A stretch of 48,207 bases of DNA from assembly GCA_027619975.1 (NCBI GenBank), contig JAQCGX010000028.1:1-48207 (forward strand), read 5' to 3'. Below are positions 6,750-47,405 of the stretch, piece after piece (position 1 is the first letter of the stretch; every line of letters begins with the position of its first letter). Made by a program: the position numbers and the translations under genes. The notes beneath the pieces were generated by a model. It had not been told where the DNA came from. It searched no databases and saw only the letters and a program-made list of their open reading frames with translations. This DNA comes from Nitrospinota bacterium (GTDB lineage Bacteria; Nitrospinota; Nitrospinia; Nitrospinales; VA-1).

Positions 6750-7388
6750 ATGTTGAAGATCCACGAAATATTTAAAAGCATTCAAGGGGAGTCTTCCCAT
6801 ACGGGGCTTCCGTGCGTGTTTGTCCGCCTCACAGGATGCAATCTGCGTTGCACCTGGTGCGATACGGAATACGCTTTCTATGAAGGAAAAGGCATGACGA
6901 TCGAGGATGTGGTCGACGCTGTCGACCAGTTTGGAATCTCCCTGGTGGAAATAACCGGGGGAGAACCTTTGATGCAAAAAGAGGCCATCCCTTTAATGCA
7001 AACGTTACTGGGAAAAAATTACACCGTCATGCTGGAAACAGGAGGCGCTCTCCCTATCAATGAGGTCCCTGAACAGGTGGTCAAAATCATGGACCTGAAA
7101 TGTCCCGGTAGCGGAGAAGAATCCAAAAATAATTATGAAAATCTCCGGCATCTGACGTTAAAGGACGAAGTGAAATTCGTTATCCTCGACCGCGAGGACT
7201 ATGACTGGAGCAAGAAAATCCTTAACGAATATTCCATTCACAAAAACGCCCAGGTATTGTTTTCCCCCGTTTATGAAAAACTCGACCTCAAAGACCTGGC
7301 TCAATGGATCCTTGAGGACAACCTGCCCGTCCGACTGCAAACCCAACTTCACAAAGTGATCTGGAGCAAGGATGCTATCGGCGTATAG
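6750..7388 (+). CDS. queE: 7-carboxy-7-deazaguanine synthase QueE
   Basis: Radical SAM enzyme of queuosine (preQ0) biosynthesis that contracts 6-carboxytetrahydropterin to 7-carboxy-7-deazaguanine. The 212-aa form starting MLKIHEIFKS is chosen because it matches the family N-terminus (IQGES then GLPCVFVRLTGC). An in-frame GTG nine bases upstream would add only three residues. The cluster motif CNLRCTWCDTE places the cysteines at 30, 34 and 37, in the usual C-x3-C-x2-C spacing. A GGEPL motif follows. queC, queD and queF are not in the window. Family assignment is strong. Confidence 0.93.
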   Translation: MLKIHEIFKSIQGESSHTGLPCVFVRLTGCNLRCTWCDTEYAFYEGKGMTIEDVVDAVDQFGISLVEITGGEPLMQKEAIPLMQTLLGKNYTVMLETGGALPINEVPEQVVKIMDLKCPGSGEESKNNYENLRHLTLKDEVKFVILDREDYDWSKKILNEYSIHKNAQVLFSPVYEKLDLKDLAQWILEDNLPVRLQTQLHKVIWSKDAIGV

Positions 7389-7466
7389 CCTCTGGTATCC
7401 CGCCGCCCTGAATGATAGCTTGCAACATTCAGCCATCGTTTCCTGATCCCTGCAAACTTGGATCCC

Positions 7467-8606
7467 ATGCCATCTCCAAAAATAATTCAACGCATTCAAC
7501 AGTCGCTTTTGGAATGGTACCAAAGAGAAAAGCGTGATCTCCCCTGGCGCAACACGGACGACCCGTATCACATCCTGGTTTCGGAATTCATGCTCCAGCA
7601 AACCCAGGTCAAAACGGTGATTCCCTATTACCAGCGCTGGCTGAAATCTTTCCCCACCACCGAGACCCTTGCCGGAGCCCGTGAACCCAGAGTTTTGAAG
7701 CACTGGGAAGGCCTGGGTTACTACTCACGTGCACGAAACCTGCACAGGTCGGCAAAATTGATGGTGAATGAATTTAACGGCAACGTTCCCGACAGCTGGG
7801 ATGAAATTTTAAAGCTTCCGGGAGTCGGGCGCTACACCGCCGGTGCGGTCCTCAGCATTGCATTCAACCGCAATGTTCCAGTTCTCGACGGCAATGTGAA
7901 GCGGGTGTTGTCCCGGTTGTTCTGCCTCATGGAAAACGGAAGTTCCTCCGCATCAGAGAATCGACTCTGGCAGGTTGCAGAGAAAATGGTTCCTTCTCGC
8001 CTGCCGGGGGATTTCAATCAGGCGCTCATGGAACTTGGGGCAACGGTCTGCCTGCCGCAAAATCCACTGTGTCTTCTGTGCCCGCTTAGTAGTGCTTGTC
8101 TTGCTAAAAAAGACAACGTTCAGGGAAATTTTCCACCTGCCAAAGTAAAAGCCATCTCTAAAAAAATTGAAGTCAGCGCGGCGGTGATTCACCGTAACGG
8201 GAAAACTTATATCCAGCAAAGGCCGCAGAAAGGGCTCATGGGAGGACTATGGGAATTTCCCGGCGGAAAAATTGAGAAAGGAGAAACTCCGGAAGAATGC
8301 CTGAGTCGGGAAATTGTTGAAGAGTTGGGAGTTCAAATTAAAATTAAGGAAAAGATCCTGACCATCAAGCACAGCTACACCCAGTTCAGGGTCACCCTGC
8401 ATGTTTTCACCTGCACCCTCCTATCCGGGAAAATCCGCGCCACCTGTTGCGAGCAATGGAAATGGGTTTCTCCTCAAAACATTAATAAATATCCTTTTCC
8501 AGCGGCCAATGTAAAAATACTGGACCATTTAAAAACCAATGGCCTCAACGGTCATAAATTAATTCCTGCCAGCCGGGGAAGAAAAAAGGAATCCCGGCAA
8601 ACCTGA
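7467..8606 (+). CDS. mutY: A/G-specific adenine DNA glycosylase MutY with C-terminal NUDIX domain
   Basis: Base-excision repair glycosylase that removes adenine opposite 8-oxoguanine. The ATG at 7467 gives 379 aa; a TTG at 7458 is an in-frame alternative. The HhH-GPD fold carries EFMLQQTQV (catalytic Glu) and LPGVGRYTAGA followed by the catalytic Asp in PVLDGNVKR. The [4Fe-4S] loop has the exact C-x6-C-x2-C-x5-C spacing (CLPQNPLCLLCPLSSAC). The C-terminal third is a NUDIX-fold 8-oxoG recognition domain with the box starting GGLWEFPGGKIEKGE and ending REIVEELGV. The intact NUDIX box (REx2EE) is well preserved for a MutY recognition domain. Confidence 0.96.
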   Translation: MPSPKIIQRIQQSLLEWYQREKRDLPWRNTDDPYHILVSEFMLQQTQVKTVIPYYQRWLKSFPTTETLAGAREPRVLKHWEGLGYYSRARNLHRSAKLMVNEFNGNVPDSWDEILKLPGVGRYTAGAVLSIAFNRNVPVLDGNVKRVLSRLFCLMENGSSSASENRLWQVAEKMVPSRLPGDFNQALMELGATVCLPQNPLCLLCPLSSACLAKKDNVQGNFPPAKVKAISKKIEVSAAVIHRNGKTYIQQRPQKGLMGGLWEFPGGKIEKGETPEECLSREIVEELGVQIKIKEKILTIKHSYTQFRVTLHVFTCTLLSGKIRATCCEQWKWVSPQNINKYPFPAANVKILDHLKTNGLNGHKLIPASRGRKKESRQT

Positions 8607-25539: not shown

Positions 25540-26012
25540 CTAATTGGCGAACTGGCGGATATAATGAATCGCCTGCCAGATCTCTTCATCGGAAAGGTCG
25601 CTGTAGGCCGGCATGGCCGTGTTGGGAGACCCTTTTCTGATGACCCAGAATAACTGACCGTCGGGCAAATCCTTCATGGTTTGAGAACAGGTAAAATCTC
25701 TCGGTTTGGGAGTCAGTGCGCCTCCTATGAGTCCTTTCCCATCTCCTTGCGGTCCGTGGCATTGGGCGCAGGCAAGCGGCTTCGCATTTTTCTGATAAAG
25801 CGATTTCCCCTCGCTTATATTTTCAGAAGTGGATGCGATAGGGTTGCTCTGATTATAAATATCGGCGGGTGCCTGCTTGGTTTTCCTTGGCTGGGAGCAA
25901 TCTCCAGCGAAAACAGGGGTATCCTGCCCTCCGGCCAATAATACTGAAGAAATTATTAAAAACCCGAAAAACTGAAAAGAAAAATTCCGCCGGAATTTTT
26001 TTTACTTACCAT
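25540..26012 (-). CDS. Monohaem cytochrome c, 5' end interrupted by an A8 slip
   Basis: Class I-type cytochrome domain with haem motif CAQCH and distal Met in AMPAYSDL. The open frame in this sequence runs only to 25938 (TTG). A strong ribosome site (AAGGAGA, complement of 26019-26025) precedes an ATG at 26012, whose frame runs through eight As (complement of 25996-26003) and stops. Adding one A would join MVSKK to a signal peptide (FSFQFFGFLIISSVLLAGG) and the cytochrome. So this is a frameshifted gene, a slippage-expressed gene or an assembly error. It is the last of four paralogues in a row and shares the extra cysteines DCSQ and DFTCSQT with its neighbours. Confidence 0.8.
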
Positions 26013-26089
26013 GTTGACTCTCCTTTTATCAGGATGAAATCCGGAAAAATTTATTTAAAGTCCGGCTGATCCTTCATGCCCGACCCGTG

Positions 26090-26602
26090 CTATTTTGCCA
26101 GCTTTCGCAGATAAAGAACCAATTGCCAAACCTGTTTCTCTTGCAACTCCGTAAATGCCGGCATTCCCGTTCCCGGAGATCCGTTTTTGATGATCCAGAA
26201 CAACTGACCATCTGGAATTTCCTGCATGGTTTCAGCACAAGAAAAGTTCCGGGGTGGAGGGTTCAATCCCTGTGCCATCATTCCAAATCCATTGCCCTCC
26301 ACGCCATGACAAATTTTGCAGGCCGTGGGCTGTGCCTCCACGCGAAACAAAGATTCCCCTGCATCCAGATTTTTTTGCGTGGGTTCCAACGGATTCTTCA
26401 ACCGATAAATATCTTCAGGCGCCTGGGCCGTCACCCTCAGTTGCGGACAATTTCCTTTGCCGCCAAAGCCCATGCTGTGATGATGCATTCCCGGCCCTTT
26501 GCCATGCCGCATCATCATGGGGCCTGCCAAAACCTGCGCCGCCATTGCCAATATAAAAAATAAAATCAGCAAAGAAAAAATGGATTTAAGAAAAACTTTC
26601 AT
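26090..26602 (-). CDS. Exported monohaem cytochrome c
   Basis: 170 aa from the ATG at 26602 (MKVFLKSIFS), which begins a signal peptide ending VLAG; the in-frame extension upstream to 26671 would hide it. A His/Met-rich mature start (MMMRHGKGPGMHHHSM) could bind metal. The haem motif is CKICH and the distal ligand Met lies in GMPAFTEL. Two further cysteines, GNCPQLR and NFSCAET, align with the neighbouring paralogues and may form a disulfide. It is the third gene of the four-cytochrome array, 20 bp after the previous one. Electron-transfer partner unknown. Confidence 0.88.
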   Translation of the reverse strand: MKVFLKSIFSLLILFFILAMAAQVLAGPMMMRHGKGPGMHHHSMGFGGKGNCPQLRVTAQAPEDIYRLKNPLEPTQKNLDAGESLFRVEAQPTACKICHGVEGNGFGMMAQGLNPPPRNFSCAETMQEIPDGQLFWIIKNGSPGTGMPAFTELQEKQVWQLVLYLRKLAK

Positions 26603-26622
26603 GAGCTTGAATCCATTTCCCT

Positions 26623-27228
26623 CTATTTGAATTTTTTGGAAAATTGCCGGATGAAAAGTACCAATTGCCAAACTTCCGTATCACTCAAAGCCCCGAACGA
26701 TGGCATTTTGGTACCCGGCGATCCGTTTTTAATAATCCAGTAGATTTGTCCATCGGGGATGTCATCCATCATATAATAACAAGTGAAGTTTCTCGGCTTG
26801 GGAGTCAATTGTTCAAAAATTACGCCCAAACCATCCCCGCCATAACCATGACATACCTTGCAAGCCGTAGGCCCAGCATCAATTTTAAACAGCGTCTCGC
26901 CTGCCCGCAGATTTTCCGAAGTCGGTTCCAGAGGATTTGTCATCTTGTAAAAGGGCTCAGGAGCCTGGGGGGTGTTTCGCTCCTGAGGACAAATACCCTG
27001 GAGAGGTTCTTCCAAGTCCACGGGATTTTTGTGGGGCATTCCCTCACGCACCACCTTTCGAATCATCCCGTTGGGAAATTCCTTTTCCTGCCCCCCCAAA
27101 GTCTGCTGATTTTCTTTCCACTCCGGTTCCACCGCAAATACCGATGATCCAGGCAAGGAGAGAATTGCAAAGGTCGCTAAAAATAATGTAAAAATCCACA
27201 CCTGCCGTCTTTGAACTTTGTTAACCAT
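26623..27228 (-). CDS. Exported monohaem cytochrome c
   Basis: 201 aa, starting at an ATG preceded by AAGGAG. The signal peptide covers about residues 1-33 (hydrophobic FTLFLATFAILSLPG, cleavage near VFA). An 80-residue N-terminal extension precedes the cytochrome domain. The haem motif is CKVCH, the distal Met is in KMPSFGAL, and the shared cysteines are CPQERN and NFTCYYM. The conserved core (QAP, PLEPTSENLRAGE, PRNFTC, PDGQIYWIIKNGSPGT) matches its two neighbours. It is the second gene of the array. Confidence 0.88.
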   Translation of the reverse strand: MVNKVQRRQVWIFTLFLATFAILSLPGSSVFAVEPEWKENQQTLGGQEKEFPNGMIRKVVREGMPHKNPVDLEEPLQGICPQERNTPQAPEPFYKMTNPLEPTSENLRAGETLFKIDAGPTACKVCHGYGGDGLGVIFEQLTPKPRNFTCYYMMDDIPDGQIYWIIKNGSPGTKMPSFGALSDTEVWQLVLFIRQFSKKFK

Positions 27229-27262
27229 TTATGTCAACTCCTTTATAGATTAAGGGAGGCAG

Positions 27263-27697
27263 TCAATCCTGCGAAAAAGTTCGGATGAAGTGAATAACAT
27301 TCCAGCCTTCCTCCTCTGAAATCACATTCCCAACCCGGATGGGCATTCCCGTTCCGGGGCTGCCATTCCTCAAGACCCACATCAATTCTCCGTCCGTACG
27401 CAACTCCTGCCATTTTTTATTAGTGAAGTTGCGGGGAGAATGACCGGGAACCCTCACTCCAGTCCCGTCCTTGCTGTGGCAGGTCACGCACAATCCCTTG
27501 CCGAAATATATTTGTCTTCCGGCTTCTATTCGCTCAGGGTCCGCTGGATAAGGATTCTCGATCTCCTGAACCTTTTCCAGAATTTCTTTTGGAACCCTCG
27601 GCTCGTAAATACTTGAATGAAACGCAAACGCGGTTGGCAAACCTGTAAGGGCCGGAAGAATTAAAGCACCCAAAATATATCCTGCCAGTTTTGTCAT
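27263..27697 (-). CDS. Exported monohaem cytochrome c, divergent paralogue
   Basis: 144 aa with a signal peptide (residues 1-25). The haem motif is CVTCHSKDG and the distal Met lies in GMPIRVG. It shares GSPGTGMP, PRNFTN and a C-terminal WNVIHFIRTF with the other three. The two extra cysteines are missing: the second position is Asn in NFTNKK. GAGGAAAG precedes the ATG. It is the first cytochrome of the array, 34 bp ahead of the next. A strong hairpin lies upstream. Confidence 0.88.
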   Translation of the reverse strand: MTKLAGYILGALILPALTGLPTAFAFHSSIYEPRVPKEILEKVQEIENPYPADPERIEAGRQIYFGKGLCVTCHSKDGTGVRVPGHSPRNFTNKKWQELRTDGELMWVLRNGSPGTGMPIRVGNVISEEEGWNVIHFIRTFSQD

Positions 27698-27892: not shown

Positions 27893-28426
27893 CTATTTGG
27901 CGATTTCTTTACCCATTTGCCCATGCAGCGCTTCCCAATGTCCGATGGATTGAGCGATCATGACCGAACCGTCAGGAATAGGAGCCCCTTTAGGCCAAAG
28001 GTGAAAAATGATGCCATCGGTCTCGCTCACATACTCCGCCAAACCCTTCTGCTCTTTAGGGTCCGTGGGGTTGAGAATAACAACACGCCCGGTTTCAATT
28101 TCCTGCTTATGGTCATGCCAGTTTTGCAGGTGAGACCATTCAGGAATCACCGACCGCGCCAGCTTTTTAGAAACCATGTATTCGACTTCCGTCATGCGGG
28201 CATTTTCATCCGTGGATTCAAACAAGATGCATTGGATGATATCTGCATTGATCGGTTTGCAATAATGATGAAAAGGACCGATCACTTCCCCATCCATAAT
28301 ATGCGGAGCCGATACATGTATCGTGTATCCCTTGAGAGGATTCGGAGGGGCATCCCCGGCTATGACTGGAGACGAAATAAACCCTGCAAGAACCAATACC
28401 AGAAAAATTACTTTAATGTTCACCAT
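27893..28426 (-). CDS. Exported DUF1264 (oil-body-associated-protein-like) protein with in-frame amber codon
   Basis: 177 aa to an amber codon, with a signal peptide (residues 1-23, cleavage after VIA). The family signature is clear: HHYCKPINADIIQC, DENARMTEVEYMVSKK and WHDHKQEIETG, with His and Cys residues conserved in plant OBAP1-type and bacterial DUF1264 proteins. Biochemical function is unknown. After the TAG (27893-27895) the same frame continues 30 codons, including SIAHLTDEIFKKLGISETAG, to a TGA at 27794-27796. That tail looks coding, so the protein may be truncated by a nonsense mutation or extended by readthrough. It lies at the head of the cytochrome array on the same strand. Confidence 0.82.
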   Translation of the reverse strand: MVNIKVIFLVLVLAGFISSPVIAGDAPPNPLKGYTIHVSAPHIMDGEVIGPFHHYCKPINADIIQCILFESTDENARMTEVEYMVSKKLARSVIPEWSHLQNWHDHKQEIETGRVVILNPTDPKEQKGLAEYVSETDGIIFHLWPKGAPIPDGSVMIAQSIGHWEALHGQMGKEIAK

Positions 28427-28794: not shown

Positions 28795-29337
28795 TCAGGA
28801 AACTGGACCACGGATCAGGCGCAGAAAAGCATCGGCGCCACTAATTTTGTCTTGATAAGTTGCACCGCCCTCATCTTTCAAGGAGACAACGACCGCTTTA
28901 CCGCTTTTTTCCTTATTGGTCCAGGTGCTCCACCCGGCCCCGGCAGGAAACATGCTGTCCATATAGATTTTATCGCCATCTTTGTCTACGTTTCGTTTAC
29001 GACGCTCATAAAGAGTCTGGGCTTCTTCAGGCGTGGGCAACCGCCAGTCGGAGTATCCGGCAAAGTTTTTATTGTTCATGCGTTGCGAATATTCCTGGGC
29101 GGTGTACCAATTGACCCATTTGCCTTCCCGTTGCCAGGTATCTTCTTTCATCCACATCAAGTTCGTTTTTGCATCCAAAATGGTGCCATCGCCAAAATCT
29201 TTGAACCGTTTGTCAACCGATTGGGCGACGGGTTTTTTATCTTTCAAACCAACGGCCAGAACCGGCGTCGCGCAAAGCAACACCACCAAAAATATTGAAA
29301 GCGCCTTTAGGGTCTGGAACCTTGAGGGATGTTGCAT
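28795..29337 (-). CDS. Exported DUF1566 (Lcl C-terminal-like) protein
   Basis: 180 aa from the ATG at 29337, preceded by TTTGGAGG; a TTG 12 bases upstream overlaps that site and is rejected. The signal peptide covers about residues 1-30 (cleavage after VLA). The mature part is a DUF1566 domain: DGTILDAKTNLMWMKED, then AGYSDWRLPTPEEAQTLY, and a C-terminal FLRLIRGP. DUF1566 resembles C-type-lectin-like/FGE folds in surface and periplasmic proteins; function is unknown. A good promoter lies upstream. It precedes the DUF1264-cytochrome genes on the same strand. Confidence 0.85.
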   Translation of the reverse strand: MQHPSRFQTLKALSIFLVVLLCATPVLAVGLKDKKPVAQSVDKRFKDFGDGTILDAKTNLMWMKEDTWQREGKWVNWYTAQEYSQRMNNKNFAGYSDWRLPTPEEAQTLYERRKRNVDKDGDKIYMDSMFPAGAGWSTWTNKEKSGKAVVVSLKDEGGATYQDKISGADAFLRLIRGPVS

Positions 29338-29401
29338 GTGAACCTCCAAACAAATTCTTTAACCAAGAATCAAGATTATTGATAGGGGTTGGGATCGCTT
29401 C

Positions 29402-45544: not shown

Positions 45545-45871
45545 ATGGAACAACAACACATCATGGTTTTCGTCACTGCCGGGTCCGAAGAAGAAGCGGA
45601 CAAACTCAGCCGCGGACTGGTCGAGGCAAAACTGGCCTTCTGCGTGAACGCCCTGCCAGGAGTCAAATCCACTTACTGTTGGGAAGATAAACTCTGCGTC
45701 GATGAGGAAATTCAGCTCATCATCAAAACCCGGTCCGAAAAATTCGAAATGCTGGAAGCCTGGGTGCGCAAAAACCATAGTTACTCTGTCCCGGAAATCA
45801 TCGCCCTTCCCATCATCAAGGGATCGGAACCTTATCTGAAATGCATCGACGACTGGGTCTCAATAAAATGA
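45545..45871 (+). CDS. cutA: Divalent-cation tolerance protein CutA
   Basis: 108 aa from the ATG at 45545, with GAGGGGAG upstream; a GTG two codons earlier is in frame. Trimeric ferredoxin-like CutA1 fold: VEAKLAFCVNALPGVKSTYCWEDK, EIQLIIKT and HSYSVPEIIALPI are family signatures. Implicated in metal tolerance, though the mechanism is unsettled. Its stop overlaps the msrP start (ATGA), so the two are translationally coupled. Confidence 0.95.
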   Translation: MEQQHIMVFVTAGSEEEADKLSRGLVEAKLAFCVNALPGVKSTYCWEDKLCVDEEIQLIIKTRSEKFEMLEAWVRKNHSYSVPEIIALPIIKGSEPYLKCIDDWVSIK

Positions 45872-46833
45872 GCCACGTAAAATTTTCCAAAGGCTGGGAA
45901 ATTTCCGGCAATCTGGCAACACCGGAATCGGTCTACATGAACCGCCGAAAGTTTTTGCAAGGCGCCGCCCTGACCACGCTTGCCACCACGGCTCTGCTCA
46001 GCGGTTGCACATCGCGCCCACCGGACCCTGATGCCGAAATCGCTCTCAGCGAAATCGAAAAGAAAATTTATCCGGCGCAGCGCAATGAAAAATTCCAACT
46101 CGACCGCCCCTTGACATCGGAAAGAATCGCCGCGTCCTACAATAATTTTTACGAATTCACCAGCGTCAAGGAAGACGTCATCGTTCACGCGCAGGCTTTG
46201 GCTAAACGTCCGTGGGCCGTCGAAGTTTCCGGCCTCGTGCGCCACCCAAAAACTTTCGATGTCGATGACCTGTTAAAAAACCTGCCGATGGAAGAGAGGC
46301 TGTACCGCTTGCGTTGTGTCGAAGCCTGGGCGATGGCGGTTCCGTGGACGGGTTTCCCGTTGCAAGCGTTGCTCAGGCAGGTGGAGCCGTTATCCCAGGC
46401 CACGCACGTTAAGATGACCACGTTTTACAAACCGTTCGTAGCCCAGGGGCAGTTGGCCTTCTGGGAACCCTGGCCCTACATTGAAGCTCTGACCGTTCCC
46501 GAAGCCATGAACGACTTGACCTTCATGGCCACCGGCATCTACGGGCATCCCCTGCCGAAACAGCACGGCGCGCCCATTCGCCTGGTGGTGCCGTGGAAAT
46601 ACGGGTTCAAAAGCATCAAGTCGGTGGTCAAAATCGAGCTGGTGGATTACCGTCCCGCCACGTTCTGGAACACCTTGCAAGGGTTGGAATACGACTTCAC
46701 CGCCAACGTCAATCCCAAAATTCCGCATCCGCGCTGGCCGCAGTCCAGGGAGAAGATGATCGGCACCGAAGAAGTCCGCCCCACCCTGCCCTTCAACGGT
46801 TACGGCAAACACGTCGCGCACCTGTATACTTAA
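45868..46833 (+). CDS. msrP: Protein-methionine-sulfoxide reductase catalytic subunit MsrP, probable Tat lipoprotein
   Basis: 321-aa molybdopterin enzyme that repairs oxidised methionine in periplasmic proteins. The start at 45868 overlaps the cutA stop and gives the family N-terminus (TPESVYMNRRKFLQG). NRRKFLQG is a twin-arginine signal. The signal ends LLSGC, a good lipobox, so the protein may be lipidated; E. coli MsrP is soluble. The molybdenum-binding Cys is in YRLRCVEAW. KYGFKSIKSVVKIEL is typical of the C-terminal half. The haem partner MsrQ is not in the window. Confidence 0.94.
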   Translation: MSHVKFSKGWEISGNLATPESVYMNRRKFLQGAALTTLATTALLSGCTSRPPDPDAEIALSEIEKKIYPAQRNEKFQLDRPLTSERIAASYNNFYEFTSVKEDVIVHAQALAKRPWAVEVSGLVRHPKTFDVDDLLKNLPMEERLYRLRCVEAWAMAVPWTGFPLQALLRQVEPLSQATHVKMTTFYKPFVAQGQLAFWEPWPYIEALTVPEAMNDLTFMATGIYGHPLPKQHGAPIRLVVPWKYGFKSIKSVVKIELVDYRPATFWNTLQGLEYDFTANVNPKIPHPRWPQSREKMIGTEEVRPTLPFNGYGKHVAHLYT

Positions 46834-46937
46834 AGATCACCGGATCGGGGATAATGGCTTAAATTTTTGCTTTTCAAGAGCAACTCGCATACCATTATTT
46901 GTTCGAGCAACCACTCTATTTCAGGAGCCAATCGATC

Positions 46938-47405
46938 ATGGAAACAGCCACTTTCGGCGCAGGATGTTTCTGGGGCGTAGAACTAAATTTCAGCAATATC
47001 GACGGCGTCACAGCCACCTCTGTGGGTTATTGTGGCGGCACTGCACCCAACCCGACTTATGAGATGGTGTGCACCGGGCAATCAGGCCATGCGGAAGTCG
47101 TACAGTTGGAATTCGACGCATCCAAAGTAACCTATGAAACTCTTCTGGAAGCCTTTTGGAACCTGCACGACCCGACCACGCTCAATCGGCAGGGGCCGGA
47201 CACCGGCACGCAATACCGTTCGGCTATCTTTTTTCATAACTCGGCACAGGAAACTACCGCCAGAGAATCCAAAGAAAAACTTCAGCAGTCCGGCAAATTT
47301 TCGAGAGACATCGTCACCGAAATCGTCGCCGCGCCTCAGTATTACCGGGCGGAAGACTATCACCAAAAGTATCTGGAAAAACGCGGCATGAAAAACTGTC
47401 ACTGA
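46938..47405 (+). CDS. msrA: Peptide methionine sulfoxide reductase MsrA
   Basis: 155 aa from the ATG at 46938, with AGGAG upstream; the in-frame ATG at 46899 would add 13 residues before the family start. GCFWGVE (residues 8-14) is the catalytic motif. NPTYEMVCTGQSGHAEVVQ and GTQYRSAIF are conserved. The end, EKRGMKNCH, offers a resolving Cys. It repairs Met-S-sulfoxide in cytosolic proteins, complementing MsrP 105 bp upstream. The pairing suggests an oxidative-stress theme. Confidence 0.96.
   Translation: METATFGAGCFWGVELNFSNIDGVTATSVGYCGGTAPNPTYEMVCTGQSGHAEVVQLEFDASKVTYETLLEAFWNLHDPTTLNRQGPDTGTQYRSAIFFHNSAQETTARESKEKLQQSGKFSRDIVTEIVAAPQYYRAEDYHQKYLEKRGMKNCH

Follow-up and report, generated by a model that had tools for sequence, protein, structure and literature searches.

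Organisation of the cytochrome array

The window, by which we mean the whole 48,207-nucleotide stretch of Nitrospinota DNA analysed here, carries four consecutive ORFs on the minus strand at positions 25540-27697, flanked by an ABC-F gene and a gene for a DUF1264 protein. We designate these ORFs CYT1 (25540-25938, with the frame open to 26001), CYT2 (26090-26602), CYT3 (26623-27228) and CYT4 (27263-27697). A single CXXCH motif is present in each product, and all four score above the Pfam cut-offs of both Cytochrome_CBB3 (PF13442) and Cytochrom_C (PF00034), which bears out the tandem array of four monohaem cytochromes proposed in a first-pass annotation of the sequence. A search of the window's own genome (hereafter the host genome) with CYT3 recovered CYT2 (E 2e-49), CYT1 (E 3e-41) and CYT4 (E 2e-13), all far beyond chance. 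Beyond CYT4 on the same strand lie the genes for the DUF1264 protein (27893-28426) and an Lcl_C (DUF1566) protein (28795-29349), both exported. CYT2, CYT3 and CYT4 likely belong to one operon, judging from the sequence, because the gaps separating them are only tens of bases long. A scan for promoters and terminators gave results close to the shuffled expectation.

Clear signal peptides were recognised by eye at the starts of CYT2, CYT3, CYT4 and the DUF1264 and DUF1566 proteins. The proposal that all four cytochromes are exported thus holds for CYT2-CYT4, but in the present sequence no signal peptide is in frame with CYT1. Its ATG (26012-26010) has a good ribosome-binding site upstream, but the hydrophobic stretch that precedes GDCSQ, the h-region of the signal peptide, is shifted by one base relative to the frame of this ATG; a run of eight A residues (26003-25996) lies between the two. 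This apparent frame break (25996-26012, minus strand) could reflect slippage, a genuine mutation or a fault of the assembly, and the sequence does not distinguish these options. We rejected the idea of CYT1 being a decayed pseudogene, as all invariant residues of the domain are kept and the differences from its orthologue in a same-genus relative (locus L038) fall mostly at third codon positions.

Downstream of its signal peptide, CYT2 contains a His/Met-rich stretch (26455-26525, GPMMMRHGKGPGMHHHSMGF), which is perhaps a copper site. Similar segments occur in CYT2-type relatives, and a His/Met/Cys-rich one in another subfamily. Elsewhere in the window (45841-47405), an MsrA-like gene follows a gene whose Oxidored_molyb product resembles MsrP by eye, and the two are perhaps a methionine repair pair.

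The four cytochromes had been regarded as products of local duplication. Their common origin is supported, but recent copying was rejected. The orthologues of CYT1, CYT2 and CYT3 in L038 are 70, 80 and 83% identical, respectively, whereas the paralogues share 46-59% identity; in a tree of 69 domains, which rests on few columns and leaves many forks unresolved, CYT1-CYT3 fell into three separate groups, each with members from other genera. The paralogy of CYT1-CYT3, as read from these comparisons, is older than the split of the genera, and CYT4, distinguished by a PRVP N-terminus, is an older, separate family rather than a recent copy of the others. The gene order EFP, methyltransferase, ABC-F, cytochrome array, DUF1566, methyltransferase and BASS is kept in many Nitrospinota. 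Several of their arrays additionally carry a stand-alone trihaem gene or a tetrahaem fusion, both of which are absent from the window. The array in L038 includes a gene for a dihaem protein of the MauG/MbnH family (6877-7902), which the window also lacks.

The cysteine pair and the protein fold

Two cysteines in addition to those of the haem motif are found in CYT1-CYT3, at positions -43 and +27 relative to the first haem cysteine, and CYT4 possesses neither, in agreement with the first-pass annotation. The first cysteine had been described as part of a CPQ motif near the mature start. This motif does occur in CYT2 and CYT3, but it is CSQ in CYT1, the only one of the three in which the site appears by eye to lie near the likely mature start; owing to extra N-terminal segments, it is found ~24 residues in for CYT2 and ~50 residues in for CYT3. 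The second cysteine belongs to an FTC motif in CYT1 and CYT3. The Asn noted in the fourth protein is indeed present, CYT4 reading FTN at a site where its relatives mostly have FTD.

In an alignment of 57 relatives, C5, Q7, R9, C48, C51, H52, R71, F73, C75, G85, Q86 and M100 were invariant, which gives the family signature CxQxR ... CxxCH ... RxFxC. A profile search yielded 344 related haem domains, comprising 206 with both extra cysteines, 131 with neither and seven discordant ones; the profile was built from members with the pair and biases these counts towards it, albeit the all-or-none pattern still stands. Exactly four cysteines are present in 205 of the 206 domains carrying the pair. On inspection by eye, two discordant domains look like broken frames (L069 and L013), three owe their cysteine to a signal peptide or lipobox-like sequence and not to a CxQ motif (L206, L207 and L065), and two are unrelated multihaem domains (L063 and L064). 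The cysteine pair marks out a distinct cytochrome family, to which CYT1-CYT3 belong and CYT4 does not. The all-or-none co-occurrence is what a disulfide predicts, and Cys5 and Cys75 likely form a structural one.

The AlphaFold2 model of CYT3 has a mean pLDDT of 92.6, and Foldseek matched it to c552 and c6 structures, in agreement with a cytochrome c fold. Residues 11-20 of the model show little secondary structure at a mean pLDDT of 95, in line with an N-terminal arm packed against the domain. Motif and fold suggest that Met100, invariant in the 57 sequences, serves as the sixth haem ligand.

The Cys-pair family is a variant of ordinary c-type cytochromes. It resembles cytochrome c552 of Thioalkalivibrio (9vr0 and 7o9u) in its single CXXCH, distal Met motif and fold (TM 0.78 to 9vr0); in contrast, the aligned c552 lacks the invariant CxQxR...RxFxC pair, and the tandem paralogues and the association with CYT4 and DUF1264 are not features of c552. 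The nearest sequences and folds in the PDB also include the monohaem subunits of alternative complex III (6lod and 6f0k) and a dihaem protein of Kuenenia (6h5l), but the aligned chains are without the second cysteine of the pair, and we recognised no genes for complex III at the loci of the family. Cytochrome 579 of Leptospirillum (NF033864) was the closest NCBIfam match of CYT4-type proteins (75-101 bits); nevertheless, the curated cut-off is 280 bits and the proteins of the window score 39-75. SorB and SorU, the cytochromes of sulfite dehydrogenases, are likewise periplasmic carriers, and members of the family in Nitrospirota adjoin SorA and SorB. CYT1, however, reaches only 21.5 bits against the SorU model NF052248 (cut-off 100), and SorB was not among the NCBIfam matches listed for CYT1-CYT4. 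A plasmid search retrieved only cytochromes of ~34% identity, mostly cytochrome c/FTR1 fusions among the matches listed.

Distribution and gene neighbourhoods

The host genome encodes four further Cys-pair members outside the array (contigs C53, C10, C17 and C36) and an nxrAB operon for nitrite oxidoreductase (NXR), with nxrA, nxrB, TorD-like and nxrC-like genes on contig C17. We saw no Cys-pair gene next to nxr in this genome; a location of the array or the family beside nxr was thus rejected for the host, which counts against its members being carriers for NXR. In a scan of named genomes with one peptide pattern, the family was found mainly in Nitrospinaceae, and also in Nitrospirales and Ca. 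Nitrotoga, among the best 80 of 302 loci. Every one of the 64 genomes in the window's order (Nitrospinales-like) gave one or more matches at E 1e-12, and four of the other 13 genomes of the phylum had matches, all weak; these counts include CYT4-type matches, and the cysteines were checked in part of the matches. Nitrite oxidation within Nitrospinota has been assigned to the class Nitrospinia only (PMC10839748).

Among 296 sampled Nitrospirota genomes, the Cys-pair domain was detected in 67 and NxrB in 66, with both present in 47 (Fisher, p 2e-23). The mismatches, namely 20 genomes with the domain and no detected NxrB and 19 with NxrB and no domain, count against a link with NXR, albeit some of them may stem from the frequent loss of NXR genes during MAG assembly (PMC12342949). 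In Gallionellaceae, the corresponding numbers were 14 and 13 of 150 genomes, with 11 having both (p 2e-12). Such associations within phyla are inflated by shared ancestry, and the occurrence in three separate lineages is the stronger point. Besides Nitrotoga, the gammaproteobacterial sample (274 genomes) contained one true member (G620, locus L220). None of the 289 alphaproteobacterial genomes had one, except an apparently misbinned MAG labelled Emcibacteraceae (G082); its Cys-pair cytochromes lie within a full Nitrospinaceae gene order (L109), because of which the contig is likely misbinned. A MAG labelled Deltaproteobacteria (G083) also carries a Cys-pair cytochrome (L149), and the other matches in its phylum (Deltaproteobacteria/Myxococcota) are without the pair. 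The direct searches covered Nitrospinota, Nitrospirota, Gallionellaceae, samples of Alpha- and Gammaproteobacteria and the phylum of G083. Within the lineages sampled, the family occurs almost only in nitrite oxidisers. Its presence follows that of NxrB, and the other Alpha- and Gammaproteobacteria are almost devoid of it. In the 69-domain tree, the Nitrotoga copy nests among tetrahaem copies of Nitrospira, which suggests that the domain was transferred between phyla.

Both the gene cluster and the cysteine pair are conserved outside the host genome. In Nitrospirota and Nitrotoga, the Cys-pair domain usually comes last, after three other haem domains, in a tetrahaem protein of ~470-550 residues. 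Tetrahaem fusions ending in this domain were also seen in Nitrospinota (L045, L047, L057, L069, L071 and L074), with stand-alone monohaem copies adjoining. Genes for a DUF1264 protein, a CYT4-type cytochrome and a Cys-pair cytochrome occur together in all three lineages: the order DUF1264, CYT4 type and tetrahaem gene was found in three loci (L202, L203 and L204), and CYT4 and DUF1264 genes adjoin the tetrahaem gene in one Nitrotoga (L146). This recurrence, for which we found no earlier description, lends support to the proposal of an undescribed periplasmic electron-transfer set. The DUF1264 neighbour named in the first-pass annotation therefore recurs in three lineages, whereas the DUF1566 neighbour, albeit kept in Nitrospinota, was not seen beside Nitrospirota or Nitrotoga copies. 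In nine loci (L118, L126, L132, L199, L204, L206 and L208-L210), the tetrahaem gene has SorA and SorB-like genes next to it, as does the array of one locus in Nitrospinota (L116). The named Nitrotoga loci carry SodC, a Cu/Zn superoxide dismutase (5/5), and catalase (4/5), and monohaem Cys-pair copies of Nitrospira sit with cytochrome P460, SelO and MsrA (L200 and L201). These neighbours could point to stress functions.

Possible roles of the Cys-pair cytochromes

A high-potential cytochrome c has been predicted between NXR and the oxidase (PMC3578206, PMC6050957 and PMC6606698). On the sequence evidence, we consider, with a probability of roughly 0.55, that CYT1-CYT3 serve nitrite oxidisers as periplasmic electron carriers of high potential and contain a structural disulfide; respiratory electron transport is the probable function of the family. 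The three proteins would be soluble periplasmic monohaem cytochromes c of a family typical of NXR-bearing bacteria of the Nitrospira, Nitrospina and Nitrotoga kind. The covalently attached haem, its iron bound by CXXCH and the invariant Met, would make them high-potential carriers, and the N-terminal arm (CxQxR) would be tied by the disulfide to the loop preceding the PDGQ helix (RxFxC). Electrons that NXR withdraws from nitrite, joined in some species by those from the sulfite dehydrogenase SorA, would enter the Cys-pair cytochromes and pass on to a terminal oxidase or to reverse electron transport. The paralogues differ in their N-terminal segments and probably also in their partners, and CYT4 and the DUF1264 protein would be parts of the same gene module. 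We favour this reading as the best explanation of the family itself, the co-conservation of its cysteines, the fold, the nxr genes of the host, the distribution and the gene module, from which we infer the disulfide, the potentials and the partners. A bolder version, in which Cys-pair cytochrome, CYT4 and DUF1264 protein form an electron-transfer module dedicated to nitrite oxidisers with NXR of the Nitrospira, Nitrospina and Nitrotoga type, is tentative and seems to us rather unlikely. In this version, the module would have become fused to a trihaem protein, travelled between phyla together with the lifestyle and expanded in Nitrospinota, and it would be the missing acceptor of NXR electrons.

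The neighbourhoods also bring to mind functions other than the main respiration. The proteins could take part in handling oxidative, nitrosative or copper stress, given the superoxide dismutase and catalase genes next to the Nitrotoga tetrahaem gene, the P460, SelO and MsrA genes next to monohaem members in Nitrospira, the His/Met-rich segments of the CYT2 type and the MauG/MbnH-family gene in the L038 array. We regard this as unlikely, since the stress-type neighbours vary by lineage whereas CYT4 and DUF1264 recur, and up to 19 matches per genome (CYT4-type included) fit carriers better. Alternatively, the module may serve sulfite oxidation, with the Cys-pair cytochromes and CYT4 accepting electrons from a SorAB sulfite:cytochrome c oxidoreductase. 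Such a role agrees with the many Nitrospirota loci in which SorA-SorB genes accompany the tetrahaem form and CYT4, and with L116, where they adjoin the array, and Nitrospirota SorA matches subunit A of the solved enzyme (2blf) at E 1e-134; one SorA encoded next to a tetrahaem gene scores 589.5 bits, just below the NCBIfam cut-off of 600. Nevertheless, the host genome has no match to Nitrospirota SorA at E 1e-40, so that SorAB was rejected as a universal partner, SorA of this type was found in only 27 of the 77 genomes of the window's phylum, at ~35% identity, and the Nitrotoga copies adjoin SodC and catalase. As sorAB is moreover largely limited to Nitrospira lineage IV (PMC12342949), we judge a dedicated role in sulfite oxidation to be quite unlikely.

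The cysteine pair itself might act as a redox switch that alters the haem potential or the binding of partners. The pair is invariant and coupled, and monohaem cytochromes with a disulfide are known, for example c6A and c5. However, four cysteines and strict co-occurrence are equally expected of a structural disulfide in the oxidising periplasm, and the neighbours that recur include none that we recognised as a dedicated thiol reductant. Nothing specific favours a switch over a structural disulfide, and we hold it to be very unlikely.

In the main texts of the open literature searched, we found no earlier description of the Cys-pair family, its cysteine signature or the DUF1264-CYT4 module. 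The distribution of this variant of c-type cytochromes is unusually informative. The signature is a possible marker of nitrite oxidisers where the multi-copy nxr genes fail to assemble, and this fits with a 2025 study that listed unspecified cytochromes c among the genes diagnostic for nitrite-oxidising Nitrospirales (PMC12342949). How NXR passes on its electrons has long been an open issue in the study of nitrite oxidation, and a simple signature tracking NxrB in separate lineages provides named candidates for this exit.
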